Source: Leisingera sp. M658
GTDB taxonomy: Bacteria; Pseudomonadota; Alphaproteobacteria; Rhodobacterales; Rhodobacteraceae
Length of the DNA: 64,000 bases
Direction of reading: 5' to 3'
Assembly (NCBI RefSeq): GCF_025144145.1
Contig: NZ_CP083546.1
Coordinates: forward strand, 3,054,501-3,118,500
Shown: positions 23,392-54,698 of the stretch, piece by piece
Numbering within the stretch: the first letter of the stretch is position 1
Layout of the letters: each line of letters begins with the position of its first letter
Notes under the pieces: generated by a model
Databases searched by the model: none
The model's input: the letters and a program-made list of their open reading frames with translations, nothing else
Told to the model about the DNA's origin: nothing
Program-made: the position numbers and the translations under genes

Positions 23392-23419
23392 GATCCGCCC
23401 TTGTCCGAAGACCGGTTTG

Positions 23420-23442: not shown

Positions 23443-23443
23443 G

Positions 23444-24052: not shown

Positions 24053-24116
24053 GCCGCCCGTTTAGACAGCGTGCAGAGAAGCTGCAATCGGATGTTGGAC
24101 GGCTGACAGGCTGCGA

Positions 24117-31343: not shown

Positions 31344-31484
31344 CTGCCGCGGTCCTTTTCTGATCACTTTCGTACAATCAAGACTGCAGCAATCCCGCCG
31401 CAATTGCAATTGAGCGCACCCGCAGTGCTTGCAGCCATCGGCGGAAGTCTGCACCTTGACAGGAAAATTCCAGGCAACCGCAAC

Positions 31485-34386: not shown

Positions 34387-34579
34387 TGCAGCCTCCAACA
34401 ACAATGCCGCCTCCTCATACCGCCGGCACGGCGGCCAGGCCAGCAGACCCGCATCCGCTGCGCCCTGAGCGTGGCAAAGCTGCACGCTGTTTACCTCTTC
34501 TTGCAAATCCGCGGGACAGGGACGTCCGCAACCGGTAAACTTTGATGCAAATCCGGGGAATTGAGGGGGCACGAAGGCT

Positions 34580-36303: not shown

Positions 36304-39300
36304 ATGCAGGATGGGAAACCCGCAGCGGGGGGCGCTGCCGGAGATATAGCAATTGTCGGGTTGTCAGTGACAGTCCCCGGCGCAAATTCTGCTGACGCTT
36401 TCTGGCAGAACCTGCGCGACGGCATTGAATCGATTGAAGTTCTGGACCGGGACACCCTGCTGGCGGCTGGCGAACGGGCGTCTGTGCTGGCCGACCCGGA
36501 CTATGCGCCTGCCTCAGCCCGGCTGCAGGGGTTTGATGAATTTGACGCCGAGTTCTTTGGCTTCAGCCCCAAGGAAGCCGCCATCCTCGACCCCCAGCAC
36601 CGCAAATTCCTGGAAGTGGCCTGGGGCGCCATGGAAAACGCGGGCCACCCGCCCGAAAGCATCGCTGGCCCCATCGGCGTTTATGCAGGCTGCGGCATGG
36701 GCAGCTATTTCTATTTCAACATCTGCTCCAACCCCGCATTGGTCGATGACGTCGGCATGTTCCTGCTGCGCCATACCGGCAACGACAAGGACTTCCTGTC
36801 GACCCGCGTCAGCCATGTGTTCGACCTGCACGGGCCATCTGTCAACGTGCAGACCGCCTGCTCCACCTCGCTGGTTGCGGTGCATTACGCCTGCAAAGCC
36901 CTGCGGGAAGGCGAATGCGATATGGCGCTGGCAGGCGGCGTCACCATCGAGCTGCCGCAGGGCCGCGGCTACCTGTACAAGGAAAACGAAATCCTGTCCC
37001 CGGATGGCCATTGCCACGCCTTTGATCACCGCGCGCAAGGTACCGTATTCGGCTCTGGCGCCGGTGCCGTGGCGCTGCGTCGGCTGGAGGATGCCATCGC
37101 CGACGGCGACCACATCTGGGCCGTCATCAAAGGCTCCGCCATTAACAACGACGGCGCGGACAAGGCCGGTTATCTGGCGCCCTCGGTCGGCGGCCAGTCG
37201 GCGGCGGTGCAGGCCGCGCTGCAGGCCGCAGGCACCCCGGCAGAGACCATTGACTACGTCGAATGCCACGGCACCGGCACCTATCTGGGCGACCCGATTG
37301 AGGTCACAGCCCTGACCGACGCCTACCGCGCCACCACGCCGGACAACGGCTATTGCCGCATCGGCTCGGTCAAGACCAACATTGGCCATCTGGACACCGC
37401 AGCGGGGGTTGCCAGCCTGACCAAAACGGCGCTGGCGCTGCACCACAGGGAAATCCCGCCCTCGCTGGGGTTTGAGACGCCGAACCCGGCAATAGATTTC
37501 GACAGCTCGCCGTTCCGCGTGAACGCTGCCCTGACACCATGGCAGCCGCACAAGGGGCCGCGGCGTGCCGGCATCAACTCGCTCGGTGTCGGCGGCACCA
37601 ATGCCCATGTGATCCTTGAGGAAGCGCCAGAGCGCGCAGCCTCGGAAGAAAGCGATTTTCCGTTTCAGATCTTGTGCATCTCAGGACAGTCAAAGGCCGC
37701 GTTGGACGCTAATACCCAGACACTCGCCGAGTATCTCCACGCCAACCCCGAGGCCGATCTGGCCGACGTGGCCTATACGCTGAAAGAAGGCCGCCGCGGC
37801 TTTGCCAAACGCCGCGTTCTGGTGGCGGAAACCGCCGCCGAAGCGGCTGATCTTCTGACAGAAAACGACCCGCGCAAGGTCTTCACCCATGACCGCCTCG
37901 GCGACGCGCCCGAGGTGGTTTTCCTGTTCCCCGGCGGCGGCGCGCAATATGCCGGCATGGCCCGCGATCTGTACGAGACTGAACCGGTCTTTGCCGATTG
38001 GATGGACCGCGGGCTGGACCACCTGCAACAGAACCTGGATTACGACATCCGCGCCATCTGGCTGCCCGAAGAGGGCGCGGAAGATGCCGCCAACGCCCAG
38101 CTGCAGCGGCCCTCTGTTCAGCTGCCGCTGATCATGATCGTGGAGTATGCGCTGGCGCAGCTGTGGATCAGCTGGGGCGTCAAACCCGCAGCACTTGCGG
38201 GCCATTCGATGGGCGAAAACACTGCCGCCTGCCTGGCCGGCGTTATGCGTTTCGAGGATTGCATTGATCTGGTCCTGCTGCGCGGGCGGCTGTTTGATGC
38301 TGTTCCTGCGGGTGGCATGCTGTCTATCGCCCTGCCGCTGGCCGAGGTTGAGGCGATCATCGGCGATGATCTGGACATTGCCAGCGTCAACGCGCCCGCG
38401 CTGACTGCCGTTTCCGGCCCGCAAGACGCGCTGGACCGGTTGTCCGCCGACCTGACCGCGCGCGAGGTCGACCACCAGCGCATCCAGATCGACATTGCCG
38501 CCCATTCGCGGATGCTGGACGGCATCCTGCAGCAGTATGGCGATTTCATCCGCTCGCTGACCCTGTCGGCGCCAAACCTGCCGGTGATCTCCAACCGCAC
38601 CGGTGTTGCGCTGACTGCGGAACAGGCCACCAGCGCCGATTACTGGGTCGGCCAGTTGCGCAACACCGTGCGCTATGCCGATTGCATTGAAACGCTCGCC
38701 AAAACCCCGAACCGTGTGTTCCTTGAGGCCGGCCCCGGCAAGGCCCTCAGCGCGCTGGCGCAAATGTCGCCCGCCGTTCAGCCGGGCCAGGTGCTCAGCT
38801 CATTGCGCCACCCGGATCAGGACGTGATGGATGACAGCTATTTCTTCGGCGTCATCGGCCGGCTTTGGGCCTGCGGGGTTGAGGCCGACTGGCAGCAGAT
38901 CTGGGGCGAGGCACGGCGCAACCGCCTGCCCCTGCCCGGTTACGCCTTTCAGCGCAGCCGCTATTTCATCGAACCCGGCAAACCCGCAGTTGAAGAAGAC
39001 ACGCCCCCGGCCCGGCATGAAGATCCGGCCGATTGGGGCTACCGCCCCGCTTGGCGGCCCAGGTTCGCCGATTGCACCCTGGACGTGGAACATGAACTGG
39101 ACCAGACACCGCACAACTGGCTGATTTTCGAGGATGAAACAGGCCATGCCACCCGTGCGGCAGACCAGCTGCAGGCCGCAGGCCACAGCGTCACCCGCGT
39201 CCGCGCTGGCGACACTTATGCGCAGCTGTCCCCGGCCTCATACATCCTGCCGCCGGAACAGGGCCGCGCCGCCTATGGTGCATTGCTGGCAGACTTGGCA

Positions 39301-42300
39301 GGCGCCGGGCTGCTGCCGGACCGCATCGCCCATTTCTGGCTGGTGACCGGGGAAGAAACCTATCGCCCCGGCTCCTCCTTCTTTGACCGCAATCTGGAGA
39401 TGGGCTTTCACTCCCTTACCGCATTGGCGCAGGAACTGGGCAATGCCGATCTGCCCGGCCCACTGCATATCAACGTCTTCACCACCGGCGCAGCACAGGT
39501 CCGCAGCGAAGCGCTGCCCTATCCCGAAAAGGCGATGATCGCGGGGCCGCTGGGGGTGATCCCGCGTGAGCTGCCCGGCATCACCTGCGCCGCCATCGAC
39601 ATCGAACTGCCAAAGCCGCCCAAGGCGCTGTTTGCACGCCGCAAACCAGCACAAGCGGACATCACCCCGCGCCTGCTGGAAGAGCTGATGGCGGACCCTG
39701 CAAACACCTCCGCCGCCTGGCGCGGTGAAAAGCGGTATGAACTCACGTGGCGCCCGCTGCCGCTGCCCGCGCCGGAAACGCCGCCATTCAAACCGGGCGG
39801 CCATTACCTGATAACCGGCGGTTATGGCGGCATCGGCCTGACCATCGCAGGCCATCTGATGCGCGAATACGGCGCCAAAATTTCGCTGATCTCCCGCGAA
39901 GGACTGCCCCCGCGCGCCGCCTGGGAGCGCTACTTGCGCAGCCACAGCCCGGCCAACCGCACCGCTTTGCGTATCCGCGCGGTAATGGCGCTTGAGGAGA
40001 CCGGCAAGGGCCGGATCCTGCCGCTGGCCGCCGACGTCTGCAACAGCGGCGAGCTGCGCCGCGCCCGCGCGCAAGGCGAAGCTGCCTTTGGTCCCGTCAC
40101 CGGCGTGATCCACGGCGCCGGTGTTATCGATGACGGCCCGCTGCTGGCCAAAGACGAGAACCAGATCGCCCTGGTGCTGGCCCCCAAGGTCAGCGGGCTG
40201 CGCGCGCTTGATGCGGTCTTCCCCGATGGCAGCCTGGAGCTGATGATATTGTTTTCCTCCTCCTCCGCCGTGACCCGGCCTGCGGGCCAGGTAGATTACA
40301 TTGCCGCCAATGAATTCCTCAACGCCTGGGCCAAGCACCGCACCGGCGGCCTCACCCGTGTGATGGCCGTTGATTGGGGTGTCTGGTCCGATACCGGCAT
40401 GGCCGCCGACGCCATGGCCAGCCGCAACGGCGCCACCGCTGCCGGCACGATGGCCCCCTGTCCCCAGCCGCTGTTACAGAAATGCGGCTATGACACGGCC
40501 GGCAACCGCATCTTCACACCGCGTTTTGAAACCGCTGATTGGCTTCTGGACGAACACCGGACCGCCGATGGCACCGCCCTGGTGCCCGGCACCGGCTACA
40601 TCGAAATGGCGGCAGAAGCGCTGTCAGAAACCGGTTTTGAAGGGCCGGTTGAAATCCGAGACCTCTACTTCATGCGCCCCCTGGTTGCAAAAAATGAAGC
40701 CCCGGCAAGGCTTGCGGTGAAACTCGAAGCTAATGAAAATGGTTATGAACTGTTTGTTTACTCGGCATGTACAAATGGTTACTCTCTAAATTGTCAGGCT
40801 ATGCTGGCCTCAGCGGCGGCGGCAGAACGCCCCGCCGCACTCAACCTCCAGAAGATTTTCACCCGATGCCCGGAGGAGCAGGCGCCAATCAACGGGCGCT
40901 TGCGCTCCGCGCAGGAGGCGCATCTGCGCTTTGGTCCGCGCTGGCATGTGCTAAGGCGCGCGGCACTGGGCAATGGCGAGGGCCTCGCCACTCTCTCACT
41001 GCCGGACATCGCGGCGCAGGACGGCTGTCTGCTGCATCCCGGCCTGCTGGATCTGGCCACCGGCTGGGCGATGGGTCTGATCCCCGGTTATGACGCCAGC
41101 GCGCTTTGGGTGCCGGTGTCCTACCACCTGATCCGGATCTTTGCCCCGCTCACCTCCAGCATCTGCAGCCATGTGCGGCTGGCGGATGCGCCGGATGGCA
41201 GCTCTGCCGGTTTTGATATCACGCTGACCGATCCGGACGGCACTGTGCTGGTCCGGATCGAAGGCTTCCGGATGCAGCGCCTGACCGGCGGGTTCGACGC
41301 CGCAGCAGCCGAAGGGCAAGCCGACGTCACCGCCGCAGAGCTGGGCCTGGAACCTGCCGCCGGCACGCATCCCCTGTCCCCTGAGGAACGGCGCCTGCAG
41401 CTGAACATCGCCAACGGCATCAAATCCGCAGAAGGCGGCGAGGTGCTGGCCCGCGCCTTGGCCACCGGCCTGCCGCAGGTGGTGGTATCCTCTCTGGACC
41501 TGCCCGCACTGATCGCACAGGCAGGGCAGACAGCCGCCCCCGCCCAGGAGGCGCAGACGTTTGAACGCCCGCAATTGGATACTGATTATGCCGCCCCCCG
41601 CAACCCGGTAGAGGAGGAACTGGCCGGCCTCTTTGCCGCCCTCCTTGGGGTGTCGCAAGTGGGGATCGAGGACAGTTTCTTTGACCTCGGCGGCCATTCC
41701 CTGATTGCGGTGCGGCTGTTTGCCCAGGTCAAACGCGGCTTTGGTGTGGAATTCCCCCTGTCGGTGCTGTTCGAGGCCCCCAGCGTCGCCGCGCTGGCAG
41801 AACGGATCATAGACCGGACCGGCGGCGGCGTTGCTGCGGAACCAGGAGCACCTGCCGCAGCTGCAGAGGACACACCATCCTTCACCCATCTGGTGCCGCT
41901 GCATCCGGGCGACGGCACCGGACGGCGGCCCTTCTTTCTGGTGGCGGGCATGTTCGGCAACGTTCTGAACCTGCGCCAACTGGCCCTGCTCGTGGGGAAG
42001 GACCGCCCGGTCTATGGCCTGCAGGCCAAAGGGTTGGTCGGCAATGACGCCCCGCACAGCCGGATTGAGGACGCAGCCCGAAGCTGTCTGGATGAAATCC
42101 GCCGGATCCAGCCCGAGGGCCCCTATCTTCTGGGCGGCTTTTCCGGCGGCGGCATCACCGCCTATGAGATGGCACAGCAGTTGAAGGATCAGGGCCAGGA
42201 AACCGCCGCGCTGATCCTGCTGGACACGCCCCTGCCCGTCCGCCCGCCGCTCAGCCGCCGCGACAAGGCACTGATCAAACTGGCAGAACTGCGCAGCAAA

Positions 42301-42732: not shown

Positions 42733-42736
42733 GCCC

Positions 42737-43753
42737 ATGAACCCGCAACGCATCCTCACCATCCTCCTCAACTACCGCACGCCGGAGATGACCTTGCAGG
42801 CCGCCGAGGCTGCACTGCGCGAAATGGAGGACCTGCCGGGCGAACTGCTGATCATCGACAATGGATCCGGCGACGGCTCCTATGATCAGATCCGCGCCGA
42901 AGCAGACAAACGCGGCTGGCTTGGCAGCGGACGGCTCCGGGTGATCGCCTCGCCTGTGAACGGCGGCTTTGGTGCGGGCATGAACATCGGTATTAAAGCC
43001 GGTCTCCACGACAACAGCGTGCCGGAATTCTACTACCTGCTGAACTCCGACGCCTTTGTGCAGGGCAGCACCATCCGCACCCTGCGCGACTTTCTGCTGG
43101 AGCGTCCCGGCGCCGGTCTGGCAGGCTCATACGTGCGCGGCACCGACGGCGTGCCGCATCGCACCGCCTTCCGCTTCCCCTCCATCGCGGGTGAGTTCGA
43201 GGCCAGCGTGCGCACCGGCATTTTCACCCGGCTGCTGAATCCCTGGGTGGTCGCCATGGACATGCCGCAGGACGAGCTGCAGGTTGACTGGACCGCCGGC
43301 GCCAGCCTGATGATCCGCCGCGAAGTCATCGAGGCCGTCGGCGGTTTCGACGAGGCCTTCTTTCTGTATTTTGAGGAAACCGACCTCTGCCGCCGCGCCG
43401 CCCGCGCGGGCTGGCGCACCCACTATGTGCCAACTAGCGAAATCGCCCACGTAGGGTCGGCGTCCACAGGGATGAAAGCCTGGCAGCGCACGCCGCAATA
43501 TTGGTTCGACTCGCGGCGGCATTACTTCGTGAAACACCACGGGCATGCTTACGCCGCCGCCGCCACGCTGGCACGGATCACCGGCAGCCTGATCTATGGG
43601 CTGCGCCGCCTGACCTCGGATAAACCACAGGCGGATCCGCCGCATTTCCTGCGCGATCTGGTCCTGTACAGCCTGCGTGCGGCATTTGCACCGCGGCCAA
43701 AACCGTCAAAAGAAACACGCGCGCCCTCTCCGATCGCAAAGGAGCAGAAATGA
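42737..43753 (+). CDS. Glycosyltransferase family 2 (rhamnosyltransferase-like)
   Basis: A 338-residue GT-A enzyme. LTILLNYRTPEMTLQAAEAA and LLIIDNGSGDGS form the donor site, YYLLNSDAFVQ carries the DxD-like metal motif, DWTAGASLMIRREVIEAVGG and FDEAFFLYFEETDLCRRAAR are typical of the WbbL/rhamnosyl group. Start is 4 bp after the PKS stop; its stop overlaps the NRPS start (ATGA). Its place between PKS and NRPS genes suggests that the assembly-line product is glycosylated or is attached to a glycan. Confidence 0.88.
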   Translation: MNPQRILTILLNYRTPEMTLQAAEAALREMEDLPGELLIIDNGSGDGSYDQIRAEADKRGWLGSGRLRVIASPVNGGFGAGMNIGIKAGLHDNSVPEFYYLLNSDAFVQGSTIRTLRDFLLERPGAGLAGSYVRGTDGVPHRTAFRFPSIAGEFEASVRTGIFTRLLNPWVVAMDMPQDELQVDWTAGASLMIRREVIEAVGGFDEAFFLYFEETDLCRRAARAGWRTHYVPTSEIAHVGSASTGMKAWQRTPQYWFDSRRHYFVKHHGHAYAAAATLARITGSLIYGLRRLTSDKPQADPPHFLRDLVLYSLRAAFAPRPKPSKETRAPSPIAKEQK

Positions 43754-46700
43754 CGTCCTTCACATGTGCCCTGATTGGCAATGAATCTCTTCTGATCGGC
43801 TGCGCCGAGGCGCTGCTGGCACGCGGCCACCAGATCCGGGCAGTGGTGTCGCAAGATCCCGATATCCGCAGCTGGGCCGATGGCAAGGGCCTGCCCCTGC
43901 TGGACACCCAGCAGCAGCTGCAAGGCGGGTTCGACTGGCTGTTGTCAATCGCCAACCTGACAGTGATCCCTGACAAGGTTCTGGCGCAGGCCGCCAAAGG
44001 CGCGGTGAACTTTCACGACGGCCCCTTGCCCCATTACGCGGGCCTCAACACCCCGAATTGGGCGCTGATCAATGGCGAGCCACAGCACGGCATCACCTGG
44101 CACCTGATGGACAGCGGCGTCGATGAGGGCGACATCCTGGCCCAGCGGCTGTTCGATGTGGCGGCGGATGAAACCGCGTTCAGCCTGAATTCCAAATGCT
44201 ACGCAGCCGCGATGGACAGCTTTGGCGAGGTGATGGCGCAGCTGGAAACCGGCGATCTGAACCGCCAGCCGCAGGACCTGAGCCAGCGCCGCGTGTTCGC
44301 CAAATCCGACCGCCCCGCCGCAGGGGGGCTGCTGGATCTCTCTCGCCCCGCCGCCGAACTGGCGCGGCTGGTCCGTGCCTTGGACACCGGCGGATACTGG
44401 AACCCGCTGTGCGCCGCCAAATTGCGGATTGGCGGGCAGGTCGCTCTCACCGGGGCCGCGGAACCAGCAGTAGGCTCCGGCGCCCCCGGCACAGTGCTTG
44501 ACGTCCGCAAAGATAGCGTGACAATCGCCACCGCGGACGGCGCGCTGATGCTGTCGCGGCTGACCACGCCGGCAGGCAAACCGCTGGACGCAACCGGGCT
44601 GGTCAAAGCCGGCGATGTGCTGCCGGCGCTAACCGGGGAAGACGCCGGGACTCTCACCGCTCAGATGGCCGCTGCGCAGGGCGGCGAAAGCCACTGGCGC
44701 AAGGCGCTTGCCGCAATGCAGCCGGTCCAGGTACCGCTTGCCACAGATACCGGCGGCGCAGGGGTAACCAGCCGGAAGATCGCCATGCCCGCTCCCCTCA
44801 GCGAAGAACAGGCCGCCGCCGGGGTACTGATCTGGGCCTTGCTCAGCAGCGGCGAGAAATCCGCTGATGTGGCGCTGTCCATCGCCGGTATGAACGCGGT
44901 TCCTGGGCTGATATCCGATTGGGTTCCGCTGCAGGCGCGGCGGGAACAGACCGTGTCCGGCCTCCAGGCTAAAGCAATTCAGGGTATTGAAAAAGCACGT
45001 AAATACGGCGGTTTCGCCGAGGATTTGGTCGCGCGGGCACCGGAAATTTCGGCGTTCTCTAAACCGGCCATAGGCCTGTCTCTGGACAGGGACGGCCCGG
45101 TTTCAGGCTGCGCCGCCACCGTCGCTTTCTGCGATGGCGCACTGGCGCTGCACACAGACAACGCCAAGTTGGACGAACAGACCGCAGAATTGCTGGCCGC
45201 GCGGCTGGCACTGGTGCTGGGCGCCCTCGCCGGTGATGCGGACCAAGAGGTCGCAACCCTCCCCATCCTGCCCGAAGCCGAGCGCAAGCTGCTGCTGGAG
45301 GATTGGAATCAGACCGCCGCGGACTATCCCGCAGATCTGACCATTCACGCCGCTTTCGAGGCCCAGGCAGCCAGCACCCCGGACGCCGCTGCACTGGTGT
45401 TCGAGGACCAAAGCTTCACCTACGCCGAGGTCAACGCCCGCGCCAATGCCGTGGCCGCACGCCTGCGTGAAATGGGCGTGAAACCGGGTGCACATGCAGG
45501 CATCCATATCCGCCGCGCGCCCGAGCTGGTCTTTGCCGCCTTGGGCGTGATGAAGGCCGGCGGCGCCTATGTGCCGCTCGACCCGGCCTATCCTGCAGAC
45601 CGGATTGCCCATTACATCAGCGACAGCCAGGCGCAGGTGATCGTGACGCAATCCGCACTGGCCAGCGCCCTGCCCGCCTCAGCCGCGCAAGTGCTGGAAA
45701 TCGAAACCGTCCCCGCGGGGACAGCCGAAGATACCATCAATGGCGGTGCGGCCGGCAGTGATCTCGCCTATCTGATCTATACTTCCGGTTCCACCGGCCT
45801 GCCCAAGGGGGTGATGGTCACCCATGCCAATGTCGCGAACTTCTTTGCTGGCATGGATCAGCGCATCCCGCATCAGCCCGGCGATGCCTGGCTGGCGGTC
45901 ACAAGCCTTAGCTTTGACATCTCGGTGCTGGAGCTGTTCTGGACCCTGTCGCGCGGGCTGAAGCTGGTCTTGTCCAGCGACGAAAGCCGGCTGGAACTGT
46001 CCAAGGGGCCCGTGGCCCTCAGCAACCGCAAGATGGATTTCAACCTGTTCTACTGGGGCAATGACGATGGGCCGGGGCCGCAGAAATACCGCCTGCTGCT
46101 GGAAGGCGCCAAGTTTGCCGATAGCCACGGTTTCAACGCGGTCTGGACGCCGGAACGGCATTTCCACGCCTTTGGCGGACCCTACCCGAACCCGTCGGTA
46201 ACCGGTGCTGCCGTTGCGGCGGTGACGAAGAACATCGGCGTGCGGGCCGGTTCCTGTGTAGCCCCCTTGCACCATTCCGCGCGGATCGCCGAGGAATGGG
46301 CGGTGATCGACAACCTGACAGCAGGCCGCGCCGGGATCGGCTTTGCCTCGGGCTGGCAGCCGGATGATTTCATCCTGCGGCCCGAAAACACGCCGCCTGC
46401 AAACAAGCCTGCCTTGTTGGAGAGCATTGAAACCGTGCGCAAACTCTGGCGCGGCGAAGAGGTTGCCTTTGCCCGCAAGGACGGCAGCGATCATCGCGTG
46501 GTCACCCAGCCCCGTCCTGTCTCAGCCGAATTGCAGGTCTGGGTCACCACCGCGGGCAACCCCGAGACCTGGCGCGAGGCTGGGACGATCGGGGCAAACG
46601 TGCTGACCCATCTCTTGGGCCAAAGCATCGACGAGGTCGCGGGCAAAATCCGTATCTACCACGATGCCCTGCGCAAAGCCGGCCATGACCCTGCGGATTT

Positions 46701-48327
46701 CAAGGTCACCCTGATGCTGCACAGCTATCTGGCAGCAACCCGCGAGGAAGCCCGCCAAGTGGCGCGCGAGCCGATGAAGGACTACTTGCGCTCAGCCGCC
46801 GGGCTGATCAAGCAATATGCCTGGGCTTTCCCGGCCTTCAAGAAACCCGAAGGCGTAAAGAACCCGTTCGAGGTGGATCTGGGATCGCTGTCGGAAGAGG
46901 AGCTGGAAGCGATCCTCGACTTCGCTTTCGAGCGGTATTTTGAGGACTCCGGCCTGTTCGGCACCATTCAGGACGCCTGCCAGCGGGTCGAGCAGCTGAA
47001 GCGCATCGGCGTGGATGAGATCGCCTGCCTGATCGACTATGGCATCGCACCGGATGTGGTACTGGAGGGGCTAAGGCCGCTGGCCGAAGTGCTGCGCTTG
47101 TCGAACGCACCGCAAGAGCTGGCGGCGGATGACTTCTCTTTAGCTGCACAGATCGTGCGCCACGGCGTCAGCCATATGCAGTGCACCCCGTCGATGGCAC
47201 GGATGATTGCCGCGGATGAAGACGCCAGCGCCTGTTTGGCACAATTACGGCATCTGCTGGTGGGGGGTGATGCGCTGCCGGGCGATCTGGTGCAGGCACT
47301 GCGCGAGGCCACCCCCGCCGAAACCCACAATATGTACGGCCCGACCGAGACGACGATTTGGTCGACGGTGGAGAAAGTCACGGCTGCCCCGGCGGGGACA
47401 ACCGGGATCGGCACGCCGATTGCCAATACGCAGGTTTACGTTCTGGACGAAAAACAATCGCCTGTCCCCGCGGGGACAGCCGGTGAATTGTATATCGGCG
47501 GCGCGGGTGTCACGGCGGGCTACTGGCAGCGGGAAGAGCTGACTTCTGAACGGTTCGTAAACACAGCGTTCGCTGACACTCCGCTTTACCGCACCGGGGA
47601 TCTGGTACGCTGGACAGCGGGCGGCACGCTGGCCTTTCTGGGCCGCACCGACCATCAGGTTAAGATTCGCGGCCAGCGGATTGAGCTGGGCGAGATCGAA
47701 GCCGCAATGGCCGCCTTCCCCGGCGTGACGGGGGCAGTGGTTGTGCCGCGCGGCGATGCCGGCAGCGAGCAACTGACAGGTTATGTCACCGCCGCTGCAC
47801 CTGTTGACGAGAGCCTTGTGAAACAAGCCTTGGCAGCCAGACTGGCCGAGGCGATGGTGCCCGCGCGGATCGTCACATTGGAGGCTTTCCCGCTGACACC
47901 AAACAAGAAAATAGACCGCAACGCACTGCCTGACCCGCAGCCGGCACGGGCCGAAACCCCTGCGGCTGTTGCGCTGGATGCAGGCGCGCAAGCCAGGATC
48001 GCAACCATCTGGAGCCGCATTCTGGGCATCAGCGGCATTGGCGCGCAGGATAACTTCTTTGCGCTTGGCGGCCATTCGCTGCTGGCGGTACAGGTGCACC
48101 GGGAATTGCGCGACGAACTGGGCGAGGCACTGGGGACTGCGAGCCTGTCGATCACGGATATCTTCCGCTTCCCAACGCTGGCCGGTCTGGCGGCCCATAT
48201 CGAAGGGCTTGCAGGCACACCTGCAAATGCGGAACAACAGCCGCAGGACAGCGAAGGACCCGACCGCGCCGGCACCATGTCGAAACGGCGGGCCATGCGT
48301 GCAAACCGCAGAGCAAGGACCGGATGA
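43750..48327 (+). CDS. NRPS-like protein: formyltransferase - half condensation - adenylation[luciferase-like monooxygenase] - carrier
   Basis: A 1525-residue single protein. Residues 1-190 are a formyltransferase with Asn87 and His89 (VNFHDGPLPHYAG) and Asp125 (GVDEGDI), the catalytic triad of methionyl-tRNA formyltransferase; 200-290 its C-terminal domain. Residues 300-500 resemble only the second lobe of a condensation domain, with no HHxxxDG. The adenylation domain begins near 535 (YTSGSTGLPKG at 677) and is interrupted at about 755-1115 by an FMN-dependent luciferase-like monooxygenase of the MupA/Atu3671 kind, then resumes (NMYGPTETT near 1194, LTPNKKIDR). PCP Ser1443 is in LGGHSLLA; the tail is basic. 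The order F-A-PCP matches the initiation module of linear gramicidin synthetase. Hydroxylation of the bound amino acid plus N-formylation is inferred; the amino acid is not predicted. Confidence 0.9.
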   Translation: MTSFTCALIGNESLLIGCAEALLARGHQIRAVVSQDPDIRSWADGKGLPLLDTQQQLQGGFDWLLSIANLTVIPDKVLAQAAKGAVNFHDGPLPHYAGLNTPNWALINGEPQHGITWHLMDSGVDEGDILAQRLFDVAADETAFSLNSKCYAAAMDSFGEVMAQLETGDLNRQPQDLSQRRVFAKSDRPAAGGLLDLSRPAAELARLVRALDTGGYWNPLCAAKLRIGGQVALTGAAEPAVGSGAPGTVLDVRKDSVTIATADGALMLSRLTTPAGKPLDATGLVKAGDVLPALTGEDAGTLTAQMAAAQGGESHWRKALAAMQPVQVPLATDTGGAGVTSRKIAMPAPLSEEQAAAGVLIWALLSSGEKSADVALSIAGMNAVPGLISDWVPLQARREQTVSGLQAKAIQGIEKARKYGGFAEDLVARAPEISAFSKPAIGLSLDRDGPVSGCAATVAFCDGALALHTDNAKLDEQTAELLAARLALVLGALAGDADQEVATLPILPEAERKLLLEDWNQTAADYPADLTIHAAFEAQAASTPDAAALVFEDQSFTYAEVNARANAVAARLREMGVKPGAHAGIHIRRAPELVFAALGVMKAGGAYVPLDPAYPADRIAHYISDSQAQVIVTQSALASALPASAAQVLEIETVPAGTAEDTINGGAAGSDLAYLIYTSGSTGLPKGVMVTHANVANFFAGMDQRIPHQPGDAWLAVTSLSFDISVLELFWTLSRGLKLVLSSDESRLELSKGPVALSNRKMDFNLFYWGNDDGPGPQKYRLLLEGAKFADSHGFNAVWTPERHFHAFGGPYPNPSVTGAAVAAVTKNIGVRAGSCVAPLHHSARIAEEWAVIDNLTAGRAGIGFASGWQPDDFILRPENTPPANKPALLESIETVRKLWRGEEVAFARKDGSDHRVVTQPRPVSAELQVWVTTAGNPETWREAGTIGANVLTHLLGQSIDEVAGKIRIYHDALRKAGHDPADFKVTLMLHSYLAATREEARQVAREPMKDYLRSAAGLIKQYAWAFPAFKKPEGVKNPFEVDLGSLSEEELEAILDFAFERYFEDSGLFGTIQDACQRVEQLKRIGVDEIACLIDYGIAPDVVLEGLRPLAEVLRLSNAPQELAADDFSLAAQIVRHGVSHMQCTPSMARMIAADEDASACLAQLRHLLVGGDALPGDLVQALREATPAETHNMYGPTETTIWSTVEKVTAAPAGTTGIGTPIANTQVYVLDEKQSPVPAGTAGELYIGGAGVTAGYWQREELTSERFVNTAFADTPLYRTGDLVRWTAGGTLAFLGRTDHQVKIRGQRIELGEIEAAMAAFPGVTGAVVVPRGDAGSEQLTGYVTAAAPVDESLVKQALAARLAEAMVPARIVTLEAFPLTPNKKIDRNALPDPQPARAETPAAVALDAGAQARIATIWSRILGISGIGAQDNFFALGGHSLLAVQVHRELRDELGEALGTASLSITDIFRFPTLAGLAAHIEGLAGTPANAEQQPQDSEGPDRAGTMSKRRAMRANRRARTG

Positions 48328-49013
48328 TAGAAGCCGAAAACAAACTGGCAAAGCGGCTGGCACTGGTCCGGCCGCTTTTTGCCGCCGATGTGGCGCTGGC
48401 CGGGGCAGATCCGCTGGGCGCCCCGCCCGCACCGCTGGCAGAGGAAGCCGCGGGGCTGTCGCCGAATGCGGTCGCCAAACGGCGCACCGAATTTGCCGCG
48501 GGCCGCAGTGCCGCGCATCAGGCGATGCGGCAGCTTGGGCTGGCACCTGCTCCTGTGCCCGTGGGCCGCGACCGGGCGCCGGTCTGGCCCAAGGGGCTGG
48601 TTGGTTCAATCACCCATACCAAGAGCTGCGCCATGGCCGTGCTTGCCCATGAGGGCGACGTTCAGGGTCTGGGGATCGACGTGGAAGAGGACACGCCGCT
48701 GAAGGACGAACTGCTGCCTGCAATCTGCTCGGAGCGGGAACAGGCCTGGCTGAAACGGCAGGATAATCCCGGACAGATGGCCAAGGTGATCTTTTCCGCC
48801 AAGGAAGCGGCCTATAAATGCCAGTACACGCTGAGCCGGGCTTTTTATGGATTTGACGGGATGGAGCTGGAGTTTGATCTGGCTGCGGGCGCCTATCAGG
48901 CTGTGTTCACCGCCGCCCGGGCGCCGTTTGCAAGCGGCGAGGCGGTTGGCGGGCGCTTTGCGGTTGGGGTCGGCCTGATCATCACCACGGCGGAAATCCG
49001 GGGGCGCGGATGA
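48324..49013 (+). CDS. 4'-phosphopantetheinyl transferase (EntD/Sfp type)
   Basis: A 229-residue enzyme that moves phosphopantetheine from coenzyme A onto the carrier serines of the adjacent NRPS and PKS. Family motifs are VGSITHTKSC, GIDVEED and FSAKEAAYKC, with Asp and Glu magnesium ligands. ATGA overlap with the NRPS stop shows translational coupling, and its stop overlaps the next gene. A dedicated transferase argues that this assembly line is active. Confidence 0.92.
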   Translation: MIEAENKLAKRLALVRPLFAADVALAGADPLGAPPAPLAEEAAGLSPNAVAKRRTEFAAGRSAAHQAMRQLGLAPAPVPVGRDRAPVWPKGLVGSITHTKSCAMAVLAHEGDVQGLGIDVEEDTPLKDELLPAICSEREQAWLKRQDNPGQMAKVIFSAKEAAYKCQYTLSRAFYGFDGMELEFDLAAGAYQAVFTAARAPFASGEAVGGRFAVGVGLIITTAEIRGRG

Positions 49014-49948
49014 TGGGGCGGCGCGGGTTTCTGGTTTGTGGCGCGCTGAGTGCGGCTCTGGGGCTGATGGCCTTTGCAACACGCAGCCGCGGCGTACCGG
49101 TTCCGCCGCCGCTGGCGCCGCCTGAGGCACCATTGAAGGTGTTTCACCTGGGGCATTCGCTGGTCGGCTCGGATATGCCGCATATGCTGGCGCAGCTGGC
49201 GCCTGCGGGGCATGGGTACAACAGTCAGCTGGGCTCGGGCACATCGCTGCGGGCGCATTGGGAGCCTGGTGAAGACATCCTCGATTTCGCAACCGCCAAC
49301 CAGCCGTCCGCTTACCGGGACGCGCGGGAGGCCGTCGGGTCTGGAGAATACAATGCCGTGGTGCTGACCGAGATGGTCGAGCTGCGCGATGCTCTCCGCT
49401 ATTTCAGCGCTGCTGAATACGTCGCGAATTGGGCCGGGCTTGCGCGGGCGGCGTCACCCGGCACACGTATATATCTCTATGAGACCTGGCACAGGCTGAA
49501 CGACCCGGACGGCTGGCTGGACCGGATCGACGGCGATCTTGAGGCGCTTTGGGTGACTAAGCTGCTGGGTCCGGACAGCCGCCGCAACCCGCAGCACCCG
49601 GTCTATCTGATCCCCGGCGGACAGGTGCTGGCGGCGGTGGCGCGGGCGGCGGTGGCCGGGGAGATCCCTGGCCTGGCTTCACGTGAATCGCTGTTTGCCC
49701 GCACGCCGGCAGGGGAATTGGACACCATACATGTCAATGATCTGGGGGCCTATGCGGTTGCCCTGACCCATTACGCGGTTCTGTACCAGCGTACGCCCAT
49801 TGGGCTGCCGCATCAGTTGACCCGCGCCGATGGCAGCCCGGCGCAGGCGTTCCCGGCGGACGCCGCGGCCAGGGTGCAGCAGATCGTCTGGGAGGTGGTG
49901 CGCGCCCTGCCCCGTACAGGTATCGCCACCGTGGGAGCACCGTCATGA
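49010..49948 (+). CDS. SGNH-hydrolase-like exported protein
   Basis: A 312-residue protein. The N terminus MMGRRGFLVCGALSAALGL looks like a twin-arginine-type or lipid-anchored signal. HLGHSLVGSDMPHML gives the block I Ser (about residue 50, GHSL in place of GDSL) and LDTIHVNDLG the C-terminal Asp-x-x-His, so the catalytic triad of SGNH esterases appears present. It overlaps both neighbours by ATGA, so it belongs to the PKS operon. The next gene encodes a related SGNH domain, and the two share YNWQH/HRLN-type surroundings. A role in removing or transferring acyl groups on the glycan is inferred. Confidence 0.75.
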   Translation: MMGRRGFLVCGALSAALGLMAFATRSRGVPVPPPLAPPEAPLKVFHLGHSLVGSDMPHMLAQLAPAGHGYNSQLGSGTSLRAHWEPGEDILDFATANQPSAYRDAREAVGSGEYNAVVLTEMVELRDALRYFSAAEYVANWAGLARAASPGTRIYLYETWHRLNDPDGWLDRIDGDLEALWVTKLLGPDSRRNPQHPVYLIPGGQVLAAVARAAVAGEIPGLASRESLFARTPAGELDTIHVNDLGAYAVALTHYAVLYQRTPIGLPHQLTRADGSPAQAFPADAAARVQQIVWEVVRALPRTGIATVGAPS

Positions 49949-52482
49949 AGCTGGAGGCGCTGATTACCTCCGTGGTCATGATCGGCCATTCGCTGTTCGG
50001 GCCGGACAACCCGCAGATGCTGGACCAGCTTTTGAATGCGCGCGGGCAGGCCGCAGCGGGGCCGACGGTAGAGGCGCAGATCATCAATGGCGCACCGCTC
50101 AGCTATAACTGGCAGCACAGCAGCACCGCCGAAGGTGTTGATTCACGTGAAAGACTGCGCCGCCCGGCGGATGCGGTGATCGTGACCGAAGCCATTCCGC
50201 TGGCCAACCACCTGAAGTGGAGCGATACCGAAGGCGCTGTGACCCGGTTTTACCAGCTGGCCCGGGCCGCAAACCCGGATGTGGATTTTTATCTGCAGGA
50301 AGCCTGGCACAGTCTGAACAGCGGCACCGGCGCCGAGGTGCCCTTTGACAAGGGGGCGGATGTGCCCTGGCGCGAAAGGATCACCCAGGACCTGCCGCGC
50401 TGGCAAGCGGTAGTTGATGAGGTTAACACAGCCACCGGCGGCACCGTGAAACTGCTGCCTGCCGGGCAGGCCATGGCGCGGCTGGAGGATGCGATCCTGG
50501 CGGGCACCATGCCCGGTCTCAGCAGCATCCGCGATGTGTTTGCCGATGATATCCACCCCAACGCCACTGGGTTTTATTTCCTGGCGCTGCTGCAATATGC
50601 GGTGCTGACCGATCAGGACCCAACAGGCCTGCCGCATCAGCTGAGCGACCGCTGGGGCAAGCCCTATCCCGCGCCGCCGCCGGACCTGGCAGCGCGGCTG
50701 CAGGACATTGCCTGGGCTGCGGCCCAAGGAACCGATATACGCACCGCCGCTTTGCCGCCCGATCCTGCCGCGCTGCCGCGGGAGGCTGCGCTGCCTGCGC
50801 TCAACTCGGTGATGGACGCTGACAGGGCTGACAGGACCGCACCGATGGCCAGCCCCATCCGGCAACCCGTCGCCATCAACCTGGCAGCCATTGCCGACTG
50901 GAGCACCCAGGCGCCGTTCCTGGATCATTTCAAAACGGCGCGCCCCTGGATCGGGCATCTGCCGAAACGCTGGGGCGGTGCGGACCACCAGGATCTGCTG
51001 GCCGCCGGGTATCTGGACCCGGAAGGCTGGCCCACCGCAATCCCGCCTGAGCTGACATCAATCGGCACGGTGATCCTGACCGACCTGCCTGCGGAAGCCG
51101 TCTCGCTGGCGGGCCGCTATGTGCTGCGGTTCGACGGCCAGGGCATTGTCGAGGCTGCCGGTCGGGCGGAGAATGTGCGCTACGGCAAGGGCGAAGTGCG
51201 GTTTGACTATACCCCCGGCCCCGGTCCGGTGGAAATCCGCATCCAGCGGACAGGGCGGCGCGGCGGGAACGGCGATGACTATGTGCGCAACATCCGGGTG
51301 GTAAAGGAAGAGCATCTGGAGGCCCATGAGCAAGGCGCGCTGTTCAACCCCCTGTGGCTGGACCGGCTGGACGGGTTTGCCGCGCTGCGGTTCATGGATT
51401 GGATGGCCACCAATGATTCAGAGCAAACCGGCTGGGAGGACCGGCCGCGGGTTCCTGAATATACTTGGGCGCTGAAGGGCGTTCCGGCCGAGATCATGCT
51501 GGCGCTGGCCAACACGCTGGGGGCCGATCCCTGGTTCACCATGCCGCATATGGCGGATGACACCTATGTCCGCCAGTTTGCACGGGCAGCAGAGCGCGGC
51601 TTGGATGAGGATCTGCGCGCTTATGTGGAGTATTCCAACGAGGTTTGGAACTGGCAGTTCCAGCAAGCGGCCTGGGCTGATGCGCAGGCGCAGGCGCGCT
51701 GGGGCGGCGATGGGTTGTGGATGCAGTTCTACGGCGGCCGTGCCGCAGAGATTGCGCAGATCTGGACGCAGACTTTTGGCGCTGACAGCAAGCGGCTGGT
51801 GCGGGTGATCTCCTCGCAGACCGGCTGGCTGGGATTGGAAGAGCAGGTTCTGACGGCGCCGCTTTGGAAGGCGGAACAGGCGGGGCGCCAAGCCCCTGCT
51901 GCCTATTTCGATGCCTATGCGGTGACGGGGTACTTCGGCGGCATCCTTGGCATCCCGGAACGCGCCGGGCACGTCCGCGCCTGGATCGCCGACAGCCGGG
52001 AGCAGGCCCGGGCGGTGGCGGCGGAACGCGGGCTGACCGGCCCGGCGGCAAGCGCATTTGCAAAGGAACATCAATATGATGCAGCCTCTGCCCAGGCCGG
52101 AGCGGAGTTGCGCGACGGGCTGATCTCGGGGGACGGCACCGATACATTGACCGACTTACTGGGGCGTGTGCTGCCCTATCATGCCCAGGTTGCGCAAAAA
52201 CACGGGCTGGAGCTGATCATGTATGAAGGCGGCAGCCATGTGGTCGGTATCGGCCCATTGGTGGAGGATGAAACACTGACCCGGTTCTTCACCCACTTCA
52301 ACTATACGCCCGAGATGGGCAGGCTGTACCGGGAACTGCTGTCAGGCTGGAGCGTCCTTGGCGGGGATCTGTTCACCGCCTATGCCGATGTTGGCGTGCC
52401 CGGTAAGTGGGGCAGCTGGGGTGCCTTGCGGGTTCTAAGTGATGAGAACCCGCGCTGGGAAGCGCTGGAGGCCGTGAAGTGA
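49945..52482 (+). CDS. SGNH domain fused to a clan GH-A-like glycoside hydrolase
   Basis: An 845-residue protein. Residues 1-250 form an SGNH-like domain (Ser15 in MIGHSLFG, Asp201-x-x-His204 in DDIHPNATG). Residues about 300-440 are beta-rich (ligand or carbohydrate binding). About 460-840 resemble a TIM-barrel glycoside hydrolase with Glu566 in VEYSNEVWNWQ (Asn-Glu acid/base motif of clan GH-A) and Glu761 in LIMYEGGSH as the likely nucleophile. No signal peptide is seen at the chosen start (ATG 49945, overlapping the preceding stop); export could be through partner or non-classical. The arrangement fits an enzyme that cuts or deacylates the locus polysaccharide. Confidence 0.75.
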   Translation: MKLEALITSVVMIGHSLFGPDNPQMLDQLLNARGQAAAGPTVEAQIINGAPLSYNWQHSSTAEGVDSRERLRRPADAVIVTEAIPLANHLKWSDTEGAVTRFYQLARAANPDVDFYLQEAWHSLNSGTGAEVPFDKGADVPWRERITQDLPRWQAVVDEVNTATGGTVKLLPAGQAMARLEDAILAGTMPGLSSIRDVFADDIHPNATGFYFLALLQYAVLTDQDPTGLPHQLSDRWGKPYPAPPPDLAARLQDIAWAAAQGTDIRTAALPPDPAALPREAALPALNSVMDADRADRTAPMASPIRQPVAINLAAIADWSTQAPFLDHFKTARPWIGHLPKRWGGADHQDLLAAGYLDPEGWPTAIPPELTSIGTVILTDLPAEAVSLAGRYVLRFDGQGIVEAAGRAENVRYGKGEVRFDYTPGPGPVEIRIQRTGRRGGNGDDYVRNIRVVKEEHLEAHEQGALFNPLWLDRLDGFAALRFMDWMATNDSEQTGWEDRPRVPEYTWALKGVPAEIMLALANTLGADPWFTMPHMADDTYVRQFARAAERGLDEDLRAYVEYSNEVWNWQFQQAAWADAQAQARWGGDGLWMQFYGGRAAEIAQIWTQTFGADSKRLVRVISSQTGWLGLEEQVLTAPLWKAEQAGRQAPAAYFDAYAVTGYFGGILGIPERAGHVRAWIADSREQARAVAAERGLTGPAASAFAKEHQYDAASAQAGAELRDGLISGDGTDTLTDLLGRVLPYHAQVAQKHGLELIMYEGGSHVVGIGPLVEDETLTRFFTHFNYTPEMGRLYRELLSGWSVLGGDLFTAYADVGVPGKWGSWGALRVLSDENPRWEALEAVK

Positions 52483-53315
52483 CCAGAGGTGTTTCGGTCC
52501 TGATCCCGGCCCATGATGAAGCGGAGTATATCGCGGGATGCCTGCAAGCGGTCTTTGCCTCGGATCCGCTGCCTGCGGGCATGGCCGCTGAGGTTCTGGT
52601 GCTGGCAAATGGCTGCCGCGATGAGACCGCCGCGCTGGCGCGGATTCAGCAGCCTCCTGCTGGCTGGGATCTGCGGGTTCTGGAATTGCCGGAGGGCGGC
52701 AAGCTTGGGGCGCTGAATGCCGGCGATGCGGCAGCCTGCGGCGGTATCCTGATCTATCTGGATGCGGATGTTGCTGTCAGCCCGGCGCTGATCCCGCAAC
52801 TTGCCGCAGCACTGTCGCAGGACGTGCCGCTTTACGCCAGCGGCTGCCCGCAGGTGGCACTGGCGCGCAGTGCGGTGACCCGTGCCTATGCACGGCTCTG
52901 GACCCGGCTGCCGTTTGTCACCGGCGGCGTGCCCGGGTTTGGCGTATTCGCCATGACCCGGGCCGGACGGCAGCGCTGGGGGGATTGGCCGGACATCATC
53001 GCCGATGACATTTTTGCCCGGCTGAATTTTGCACCGTCTGAACGGGTGAAAGTGCCGGCTGTCTACAGCTGGCCGATGGTGGAGGGTTTCCGCAATCTGG
53101 TCCGGGTGCGGCGACGGCAAAACGCAGGCGTGGCTGAGGTGGCAAGCAAATACCCAGGCCTGTTGCAGAACGAGGACAAAATCCCGCCAAGCGCCGGCGC
53201 CGTGCTGAAGCTGCTGCTGTCGGATCCAGCCGGTTTTGTACTCTATGCGATGGTCGGTCTGGCCACAAAAACACCGCTGTTTGCTTCAGCCAGCCGCTGG
53301 ACCCGCGGCCGCTGA
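52479..53315 (+). CDS. Glycosyltransferase family 2
   Basis: A 278-residue GT-A enzyme. SVLIPAHDEAEYIAGCLQAV and LVLANGCRDETAALA form the donor site, IYLDADVAVSPAL the metal site, and WPDIIADDIFARLNF the catalytic region. Start is GTG 52479, overlapping the preceding stop. Last gene of the coupled operon, followed by the multi-hairpin repeat. A C-terminal hydrophobic stretch (AGFVLYAMVGLA) may contact the membrane. Confidence 0.88.
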   Translation: MTRGVSVLIPAHDEAEYIAGCLQAVFASDPLPAGMAAEVLVLANGCRDETAALARIQQPPAGWDLRVLELPEGGKLGALNAGDAAACGGILIYLDADVAVSPALIPQLAAALSQDVPLYASGCPQVALARSAVTRAYARLWTRLPFVTGGVPGFGVFAMTRAGRQRWGDWPDIIADDIFARLNFAPSERVKVPAVYSWPMVEGFRNLVRVRRRQNAGVAEVASKYPGLLQNEDKIPPSAGAVLKLLLSDPAGFVLYAMVGLATKTPLFASASRWTRGR

Positions 53316-53492: not shown

Positions 53493-54698
53493 TTACCCGG
53501 CGATGGCCTTGCGGAAATGGGCGGCGAGTTTAGCGGCCTCTGCGGCACTGTCATGACGTTTCAGTACGCGCCTGCGGCCCGCCTGACCCATGTCGGTCAG
53601 CTGCTGGTGCGGGGTCTGTGCAAGGGTGAGGACGGCCTGTGCCAGGGCGCCCTCATCCCCGGCCGGCAGCAGCCAGCCCGTTTGTCCTGCCACCACCAGT
53701 TCGGGCGTGCCTGCGATATAGGTCGCGATCACCGGGCGCGCGGCGGCCATTGCCTCCATCACCACCATCGGCAGGCCTTCGGCAAATGATGGCATCACCA
53801 GCGCATGGGAGTTTGCCAGCTCTGCCTGCACCTCGGTTTCGGCAAGCCAGCCGGTCAGGGTGACGCTGCCCTGCAAACCATGCGCTGCAATTGCGGCCTC
53901 CAGCGCAGGCCGCATACCGCCGTCACCAACCAGCGACAGGTGCAAATCCGGGATTTCCTGCACCAGCCGTGCCATGGCTTTCACCAGAACCATCTGGCCT
54001 TTCTGCTCCACAAACCGCCCGATCGCCACCAGCCGCAGCGGCCCCTGCGGCAACGGCGCAGGATCGGCAAACCGTTCCGGCTCAATCCCGCAATGCACCA
54101 CTTTGAGACTGTCCCACTTGCCGAAAGCGGCCCAGCGGCTCAGCTGGCTTTTGCCAAAACTGCTGACAGCCACAGTAAAAGCCGCACGGTTGATCTTCTC
54201 ACCCAGCGACAGCGCTTGCGGTGCGTCGAACTCTTCCGGCCCGTGCACGGTGAAACTGTAGCCCGGCCCGCCCAGCACATGGGCCAGCATCGCCACAGCG
54301 GCAGCGTTGGTGCCGAAATGCGCATGCATATGCTGCACGCCTGCCGCGGCGCAGCGCTGTTTCACATAGGCAGCCTCACCCAGGTAGATCAGGTACCGCA
54401 GGAGGCCCTTGTCCGATGCGCGGGCCAATTTCGCCGCCAACCGCAGCGCTTGTGCAAAGCGGGCGGGGGCTGCGGCCTCCCTGGCGAGGGCAGCAAGCAG
54501 GCGCCCGGCGCCGGCCTGCAGCACGTAGCTGGTACGGGCTGCCTCAGCCTGATCCTTCGGATCCGCCAAAGCCGCAGCCGAGGGGCGCATTGCCAAGCGC
54601 AGGATCTCTACGCCCTGATGTTCCAGCGCCTGCAGCTCACGCCGGATGAAACTGTGCGAGGGCTGGGGGTAAGTGTTCAGGACATAGGCAATTTTCAA
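53493..54698 (-). CDS. Glycosyltransferase family 4 (GT-B)
   Basis: A 401-residue glycosyltransferase. The N-terminal half has IAYVLNTYPQPSHSFIRREL (acceptor side) and the C-terminal half the donor-binding core GRFVEQKGQMVLVKAM, LVGDGGMRPALE and MPSFAEGLPMVVMEAMA (E-x7-E). Start is TTG 54698, chosen because it gives the family N terminus (KIAYVLNTYP); upstream open frame lacks support. On the minus strand, divergent from the flippase gene. Confidence 0.88.
   Translation of the reverse strand: MKIAYVLNTYPQPSHSFIRRELQALEHQGVEILRLAMRPSAAALADPKDQAEAARTSYVLQAGAGRLLAALAREAAAPARFAQALRLAAKLARASDKGLLRYLIYLGEAAYVKQRCAAAGVQHMHAHFGTNAAAVAMLAHVLGGPGYSFTVHGPEEFDAPQALSLGEKINRAAFTVAVSSFGKSQLSRWAAFGKWDSLKVVHCGIEPERFADPAPLPQGPLRLVAIGRFVEQKGQMVLVKAMARLVQEIPDLHLSLVGDGGMRPALEAAIAAHGLQGSVTLTGWLAETEVQAELANSHALVMPSFAEGLPMVVMEAMAAARPVIATYIAGTPELVVAGQTGWLLPAGDEGALAQAVLTLAQTPHQQLTDMGQAGRRRVLKRHDSAAEAAKLAAHFRKAIAG

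Follow-up and report, generated by a model that had tools for sequence, protein, structure and literature searches.

A putative polyketide/non-ribosomal peptide tailoring cassette within a Wzx/Wzy-type polysaccharide locus of Leisingera and related bacteria

In D-alanylation (Dlt), the acyl group that decorates a polymer of the cell surface comes from an adenylation (A) domain acting with a carrier protein; this system uses a membrane-bound O-acyltransferase (MBOAT) and has no polyketide synthase (PKS), formyltransferase (FT) or flavin-dependent monooxygenase (FMO). Among non-ribosomal peptide synthetases (NRPS), the initiation module of LgrA, the linear gramicidin enzyme, starts FT-A-peptidyl carrier protein (PCP) and loads valine, and the A[FMO] module of the myxothiazol type has a full condensation (C) domain upstream and a thioesterase (TE) in the same protein. 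According to the accessible part of PMC10204066, the FMO of the myxothiazol and melithiazol modules lies between motifs a4 and a5 of a glycine-using A domain and hydroxylates the glycine alpha carbon, releasing an amide and a glyoxyl thioester that the next TE clears, whereas in solanimycin B the FMO lies at a8-a9 and the hydroxyl is retained. Type I PKS genes, rkpA and wcbR, sit in capsular polysaccharide biosynthesis and export clusters (rkp, wcb), and no NRPS partner is named for them in the available part of the text (PMC3908369). Here we analyse a 64,000-nucleotide stretch (the window; positions 3,054,501 to 3,118,500 of contig NZ_CP083546.1) of the 4.89 Mb genome of Leisingera sp. M658, in which a PKS gene and an NRPS gene lie within a Wzx/Wzy-type polysaccharide locus.

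The same pairing recurs in many related bacteria, and the assembly line therefore probably makes a small chemical group for the polysaccharide and not a free, drug-like compound. We think it reasonably likely, though well short of assured, that the PKS/NRPS genes form a cassette that tailors a secreted, Wzx/Wzy-dependent polysaccharide. PKS genes in capsule loci are known already; the new part is the NRPS, predicted to be formylating and glycine-oxidising. Genes were called from open reading frames and their translations and with a purpose-made codon-usage gene caller, and domains were assigned with Pfam/NCBIfam. Named loci below are the best 80 kept for neighbourhood counts from a scan that found at least 557 relatives. 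The seven genes at the centre of the locus are the following.

36286 (or 36304) to 42732, plus strand: type I PKS with ketosynthase (KS), acyltransferase (AT), ketoreductase (KR), dehydratase (DH), acyl carrier protein (ACP) and TE domains (Pfam/NCBIfam; catalytic motifs by eye)
42737 to 43753, plus strand: family 2 glycosyltransferase (GT2) between PKS and NRPS (domain search and gene caller; called in 78 of the 80 named loci)
43750 to 48327, plus strand: NRPS starter module with FT, partial C, glycine-type A with FMO, and PCP (Pfam/NCBIfam, alignment, structure model and Foldseek)
48324 to 49013, plus strand: 4'-phosphopantetheinyl transferase (PPTase; Pfam/NCBIfam)
49010 to 49948, plus strand: SGNH-like protein with a hydrophobic N-terminus and a GHSL motif (by eye; no Pfam match)
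49945 to 52482, plus strand: fusion of an SGNH hydrolase domain and a TIM-barrel glycoside hydrolase (SGNH-GH; structure model and Foldseek)
52479 to 53315, plus strand: GT2 glycosyltransferase (Pfam/NCBIfam)

Around them lie genes for polymer assembly.

30957 to 32534, plus strand: GT2-type glycosyltransferase (Glyco_tranf_2_4; PF13704, E 7.7e-18; start uncertain; homologues in 15 of the 80 named loci)
32531 to 33481, plus strand: GT2 glycosyltransferase, GTb (PF00535, E 1.8e-14; 54 of the 80 named loci)
33634 to 34485, minus strand: WecG/TagA/CpsF-family glycosyltransferase (PF03808, E 1.2e-42)
34580 (or 34604) to 36043, plus strand: Wzy-like polymerase (PF04932, E 2.3e-06, under the gathering score)
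53493 to 54698, minus strand: GT4-like glycosyltransferase (42.7% identity to a protein annotated as glycosyltransferase family 4)
54916 (or 54934, 54970) to 56304, plus strand: Wzx-type flippase (PF13440, E 1.7e-42)
56307 to 57557, minus strand: Wzz-like chain-length protein (PF02706, E 0.011, under the gathering score)
57689 to 58549, minus strand: bacterial tyrosine kinase (BY-kinase, CpsD/CapB)-like protein (59.5% identity to an annotated CpsD/CapB kinase)
58699 to 59466, minus strand: ExoY-type initiating sugar transferase (PF02397, E 6.4e-55)

The PKS and GT2 genes are separated by a 4-bp gap, and the remaining five junctions, through to the terminal GT2 gene, are 4-bp overlaps. Two PKS starts are possible in a frame open from 36229: a GTG at 36286, picked by the gene caller, and an ATG at 36304. 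The original prediction of seven coupled plus-strand genes (36286/36304 to 53315) in a Wzx/Wzy-type locus is thus borne out by the open reading frames and the gene caller, and its flanking Wzy, Wzx, Wzz, BY-kinase and ExoY products, with four more glycosyltransferases, agree with our calls, although the Wzy, Wzz and BY-kinase labels are the weaker matches. The Wzx, the ExoY-type transferase, the WecG-family enzyme and the other glycosyltransferases score above Pfam cut-offs; the Wzy-like product reaches 27.9 bits against a cut-off of 31.7 for Wzy_C (PF04932), and Pfam finds only P-loop matches, all sub-threshold, in the BY-kinase-like product. The GT2 encoded between PKS and NRPS had no match in the PDB at E 0.001. 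A promoter scan of the window was uninformative (4 sites, 3.0 expected). It also contains 24 terminator-like sites where 12.8 were expected; they fall on both strands, most of them within genes.

Co-occurrence was examined in a family sample of 248 genomes, nearly one per genus (247 genera), at thresholds of our own choosing. The NRPS was found in 89 genomes, that is in 88 of the 247 genera (E 1e-100), a count that takes in partial matches and one genome of a sister type described below (G144); SGNH-GH was found in 90 genomes and the Wzx subfamily of the window in 85. The original prediction had called for a cluster comparison to see whether PKS/NRPS and polysaccharide genes occur together, and across the family this is upheld: NRPS and Wzx subfamily are both present in 81 genomes and both absent from 155, with the NRPS alone in 8 and Wzx alone in 4 (Fisher p 2e-50, uncorrected for relatedness). 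The NRPS and SGNH-GH behave likewise (both in 84, one only in 5 and 6, neither in 153; again uncorrected). Positions could be given to 72 NRPS-Wzx pairs, 60 of them on one contig, and 56 of those no more than 25 kb apart; in two genomes (G034, G055) both genes are retained though more than 1.4 Mb apart. When about 44 kb was viewed in 20 genomes, picked from strong matches on long contigs, each had at least one nearby Wzx, Wzy, Wzz, BY-kinase or ExoY homologue. One of these (G121) showed ExoY alone, a separate search placing Wzx 17 kb away; there the gene caller took an antisense reading frame instead of the PKS. Two genomes, G104 (L197) and G189 (L203/L204), surfaced in an SGNH-GH search at E 1e-20 with comparable polysaccharide loci that hold homologues of SGNH-GH, Wzy and ExoY. 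Neither genome has an NRPS match at E 1e-100, and the cassette therefore looks like an add-on.

Among the 80 named loci, several on contigs that stop inside the flank, homologues at E 1e-5 were counted for the PKS (78), GT2 (78), PPTase (75), Wzx (58), Wzz (58), SGNH-GH (55), Wzy (50), BY-kinase (47), SGNH (46) and ExoY (17). Within 10 kb, 75 of the 80 have a homologue of one or more of Wzx, Wzy, Wzz, BY-kinase and ExoY (E <1e-10) and 58 have homologues of two or more; a Wzy-like gene immediately precedes the PKS in 36. The tight junctions recur as well: counting overlaps, same-strand neighbours lie no more than 10 bp apart for PKS-GT2 in 71/75, GT2-NRPS in 68/77, NRPS-PPTase in 65/74, SGNH to SGNH-GH in 34/36 and SGNH-GH to GT2 in 32/41. 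This tightness is not due to chance. By eye there are at least three gene orders, and since the order varies between groups, the link between the PKS/NRPS genes and the polysaccharide genes does not reflect a single fixed layout.

Three loci carry the label Hydrogenophaga, a genus of Betaproteobacteria, and come from two metagenome-assembled genomes and from H. pseudoflava NBRC 102511 (L168). In trees without support values, the NRPS of Hydrogenophaga nests within the Rhodobacteraceae, as does the PKS for the two that are long enough, and NRPS and PKS distances agree in a mirror-tree comparison (r 0.91, n = 74). Identity to Rhodobacteraceae proteins in all three loci is 66-69% for the PKS, 62-63% for GT2 and 63-64% for the NRPS; it is 58-60% for SGNH (L149, L168) and only 40-45% for the PPTase. 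Among the surroundings, GTb is 58.5% identical in L168 and a GT4 51.8% in L144, WecG 30-31% and the initiating transferase 42-45% over about 185 residues (L144, L149), and an ATPase matches a gene of the G189 locus, which has no cassette, at 43-45%; for several neighbour genes there is no counterpart among the loci compared. The L149 neighbours comprise an XrtA/PEP-CTERM-type ATPase (under the curated cut-off), a WcaJ-type transferase, a WecG-family glycosyltransferase and a nucleotide-sugar dehydrogenase. As the cassette is alike but its surroundings are divergent, it most likely entered a different polysaccharide locus in Hydrogenophaga, together with the GT2 and, in two of the three loci, the SGNH gene. 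L168 also encodes, at 18735 to 24740, an additional NRPS-like protein of 2,001 residues that overlaps its neighbours within the polysaccharide locus, with acyl-ligase, carrier, C, A, carrier and TE domains recognised by eye.

In a sample of the phylum, 16 of 398 genomes match the NRPS at E 1e-150, and we opened loci of G816, G710, G855, G843, G879 and G528, outside the family, and G144, inside it. PKS, NRPS and an SGNH-like gene adjoin a flippase or sugar transferase in G816 and G710, and in G528 and G879 the NRPS stands among genes that look polysaccharide-related by eye; the G843 locus is an NRPS cluster, and its matching protein is without the FT part, while G855 and G144 show, in other contexts, the sister type described below. 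A plasmid collection yielded 28 records that match the NRPS, and seven of the nine opened are polysaccharide contexts (Aminobacter, Paracoccus liaowanqingii, Parasedimentitalea, Shinella, two Ruegeria and Paracoccus marcusii), while the Rhizobium grahamii locus is unannotated yet has Wzx- and WecG-like neighbours; the ninth, Aliiroseovarius sp. M344, is not such a context. In Aminobacter and Shinella, PKS, NRPS and PPTase lie beside a flippase, distantly related to that of the window (33-36%), and other polysaccharide genes. Translational coupling is not universal, for PKS and NRPS genes run divergently in the rhizobial loci. The idea that the polysaccharide link is a trait of roseobacters only was rejected on the Hydrogenophaga and rhizobial loci.

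The full-length NRPS is present in a single copy in the Leisingera genome, with weaker partial matches elsewhere. An architecture of formyltransferase, A domain with an inserted monooxygenase, and PCP had been read from the translation; it stands, and can be refined: the A domain is of glycine type, the FMO lies between A4 and A5, and a partial C domain separates FT from A. The FMO (TIGR04020, MupA/Atu3671 family) occupies residues 764-1114, after FDIS (722-725) and before MYGPTE (1195-1200); among solved structures it matches PuwE (E 8.5e-100), while the whole NRPS matches LgrA best. The FT site, N-x-H and D, is conserved in 76 of 77 named relatives and is followed by A and PCP. All 77 named proteins have the A-domain pocket DILQxGM[IV]W, which we take to be a glycine code under a motif-based numbering that is likewise our assumption, and the tenth position is the A10 lysine (K1387 of the window protein by our reading), invariant in a 15-member alignment. 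In 15 members, the stretch of roughly 250 residues from FT to A has no Pfam match at E 0.1. A model of this linker (mean predicted local distance difference test, pLDDT, 88.2) resembles part of a condensation domain in Foldseek: 141 PDB chains match at E ≤0.001, and the 50 matches listed are NRPS entries, mostly condensation or C-A structures. Given this fold, the formyltransferase seems to occupy the place of the missing part of the C domain. The NRPS of G879, from another family, is longer and begins, by eye, with a C-domain-like region.

In comparison with LgrA, which shares the FT-A-PCP start, the Leisingera NRPS has a glycine-type code, an inserted FMO, a partial C domain, a PKS partner and a polysaccharide context. 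It shares the position of the FMO, between a4 and a5 of the A domain, with the myxothiazol and melithiazol modules, and like them it would use glycine and hydroxylate its alpha carbon, but it looks like an initiating module, in which FT is followed by a partial C domain, and the TE is found on the separate PKS. On that precedent we predict that the NRPS is probably a starter module making an N-formyl-alpha-hydroxyglycyl thioester for a one-module PKS. No PPTase was called or annotated adjoining the NRPS in Parasedimentitalea (L236), and an annotated PPTase lies about 9 kb from it in Paracoccus marcusii (L240).

The PKS has a single module in the order KS-AT-KR-DH-ACP-TE, with no enoylreductase (ER) recognised. 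Hand-typed active-site patterns for KS, AT, ACP, TE and the first DH pattern match nearly all PKS proteins of 19 relatives and the KR pattern matches 17, but the second DH pattern matches only 6, so full DH activity across all relatives is not established. Like RkpA and WcbR, it is a type I PKS within a polysaccharide cluster; unlike them, it has a terminal TE and probably receives its starter from a formylating NRPS module. The KS motif is DPQHR in the window and in 75 of 76 called PKS proteins (no match in one), as against the DPQQR given for RkpA/WcbR in the available part of PMC3908369. We rejected an identification with RkpA/WcbR, setting the PKS apart by this motif alone.

The SGNH protein is 36% identical to the SGNH half of SGNH-GH. 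In Pfam (limit E 1) the former has no match and the latter just a domain of unknown function (DUF) at E 0.29. A model of SGNH-GH (pLDDT 87.5) matches GDSL/SGNH esterases at its N-terminus and, more weakly and mostly at E >0.001, TIM-barrel arabinofuranosidase, GH10 and GH1-type folds at its C-terminus. By eye no signal-like sequence is seen in the window fusion, while in Jhaorihella (L131) the glycoside hydrolase opens with one. Just upstream of the locus, at 24946 to 30371, are two long coupled genes that recur beside it in several genomes and are probably tamA and tamB, by eye, the annotated TamB-domain homologue being matched by position only. Genes resembling these adjoin the only parts found in G193, namely the glycoside hydrolase part of SGNH-GH and a PPTase (61%; L199 19138-19851, L200 9-1630), which may be the scar of a lost locus. 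Farther away, at 9986 to 11674, a lower-G+C stretch encodes a protein with repeated motifs of calcium-binding type (by eye).

From the domains, motifs, gene order, co-occurrence and transfer described above we infer every reaction, product and attachment in the following route. The PPTase would arm the PCP and ACP. The NRPS would load glycine, formylate its nitrogen and hydroxylate the alpha carbon through the FMO inserted in its A domain, giving N-formyl-alpha-hydroxyglycyl-S-PCP, which may be kept or may collapse to a glyoxylyl thioester as in myxothiazol. The PKS would accept this starter, add at least one malonyl-type unit, reduce it and possibly dehydrate it, and its thioesterase would release or transfer a short acyl group that then becomes attached to a sugar within the lipid-linked repeat unit. 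In delivering an acyl group to a surface polymer by way of an A domain and a carrier protein, the cassette would resemble Dlt. The GT2 between PKS and NRPS would add the acceptor sugar or glycosylate the product, while ExoY-type initiation, a dedicated Wzx and the Wzy/Wzz/BY-kinase machinery would start, flip and polymerise the repeat. The SGNH and SGNH-GH proteins, probably periplasmic, could edit the acyl groups, by trimming, moving or removing them, and cleave the glycan.

Several observations weigh against a tailoring cassette. No acyltransferase besides the TE and the SGNH proteins was recognised in the block as the enzyme joining acyl group and sugar; an MBOAT transferase was likewise not recognised, with no search aimed at it. 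Eight of the 89 NRPS-positive genomes are without the Wzx subfamily at the chosen threshold, and the 80 named loci, as the best of at least 557, lean to close relatives. Five of them (L112, L162, L168, L171, L186) are without any of the five machinery genes, L112 being a 9.9-kb contig and the other four still carrying glycosyltransferases or SGNH. Of the Hydrogenophaga records, two are metagenome-assembled, and the PKS called in the other one, L168, has just 1,576 residues, which is a broken gene or a draft error. Lastly, a sister type, in which an FT-A[FMO] protein is followed by a PKS of about 3,070-3,080 residues, occurs in G144 (L193-L195), G855 (L224-L226) and Aliiroseovarius sp. M344 (L241), and no polysaccharide genes were recognised in the 14-20 kb examined on each side. 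A block lying away from polysaccharide genes is what the original prediction had named as evidence to the contrary, and it was found here in part, with a larger PKS and without GT2; since neither a GT2 homologue nor the 2.1-kaa (thousand amino acid) PKS is called alongside, we treat these three as a sister type, not as the same block. They also led us to reject the notion that every FT-A[FMO] protein is polysaccharide-linked. The joint function of assembly line and polysaccharide genes that had been proposed from their coupling remains strongly supported by co-occurrence, varied linkage, the transfer into Hydrogenophaga and the rhizobial loci; what did not hold generally is the coupling itself. 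The N-formyl, oxidised aminoacyl-polyketide group proposed along with it, and its placement on a glycan, stay predictions.

Published appearances of the cluster, matched by layout, seem to be as an unassigned hybrid only. An NRPS-like/T1PKS (type I PKS) hybrid class occurs in 18 species of a survey of 37 genomes, and the Roseibaca example has a 4,527-nt NRPS gene, a gap of about 1 kb and a 6,333-nt T1PKS gene (PMC10584327); PKS and NRPS are two locus tags apart in Phaeobacter inhibens (Inhi_1972/1974; PMC4062626), and the T1PKS and NRPS-like clusters of Tritonibacter mobilis AK171 have no known relatives (PMC11225332). In the accessible parts of these sources the Roseibaca, P. inhibens and perhaps AK171 clusters resemble the Leisingera block by layout and size rather than by sequence comparison. 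Such hybrids are presented as secondary-metabolite clusters, and the word polysaccharide is absent from the available part of the Roseibaca text (PMC10584327). A literature search, with most subscription journals outside it, brought up no PKS/NRPS cassette that we recognised as serving polysaccharide tailoring.

That treatment in surveys, as far as their available parts go, would suit a free metabolite, glycosylated by the GT2 enzymes and exported by the Wzx-type transporter while the polymer genes serve a separate glycan, and so would the TE on the PKS, the adjoining GT2 and a sister type that, without polysaccharide genes, presumably makes something else. However, Wzy, Wzz, BY-kinase and ExoY homologues recur alongside in several gene orders and the Hydrogenophaga copy again lies among polymer genes, and we regard this explanation as unlikely, if worth keeping in mind. 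The two sets of genes could instead be neighbours without a shared function, an accessory natural-product cluster and a polysaccharide locus travelling in one island: both are patchy and accessory, some copies are on plasmids, and the G104 and G189 loci do without the cassette. We give this little credence, as start and stop codons overlap with those of GT2, SGNH and SGNH-GH, Wzx co-occurs even in the two genomes where it is unlinked, and the cassette recurs in Hydrogenophaga and Hyphomicrobiales beside different or distantly related polysaccharide genes.

The product might also end or anchor the glycan chain as a lipid-like cap or primer made by an iterative PKS, as perhaps in rhizobial capsule loci. 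With one module, KR and DH domains and no recognised ER, the PKS could iterate, and rkpA/wcbR in capsule clusters offer a parallel, but an ExoY-type initiating transferase is present here, the KS motif differs from that of RkpA/WcbR, and those genes have no NRPS partner named in the part of PMC3908369 available; this proposal seems to us quite improbable. For the tailoring cassette itself, one speculative form, to which we attach only a slim chance, is that the glycan carries a masked aldehyde, as an N-formyl-alpha-hydroxyglycyl (carbinolamide) unit, or the glyoxylyl unit that its collapse would leave, extended by the PKS.

The hybrid cluster, whose NRPS occurs in roughly one in three of the genera sampled from the family, seemingly figures in print as an unassigned, drug-like cluster. 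If it does serve to decorate a polysaccharide, there would be a simple reason why a hunt for a free product might fail, and an assembly-line route to glycan side groups would join the routes already known. The sister type without polysaccharide genes offers a natural comparison for the enzymes. Should the masked aldehyde be real, it could cross-link amines and act as a covalent glue for the surface attachment of roseobacters and their kin. More broadly, if the cassette has the role proposed, the surface chemistry of many marine bacteria would become testable by single deletions.

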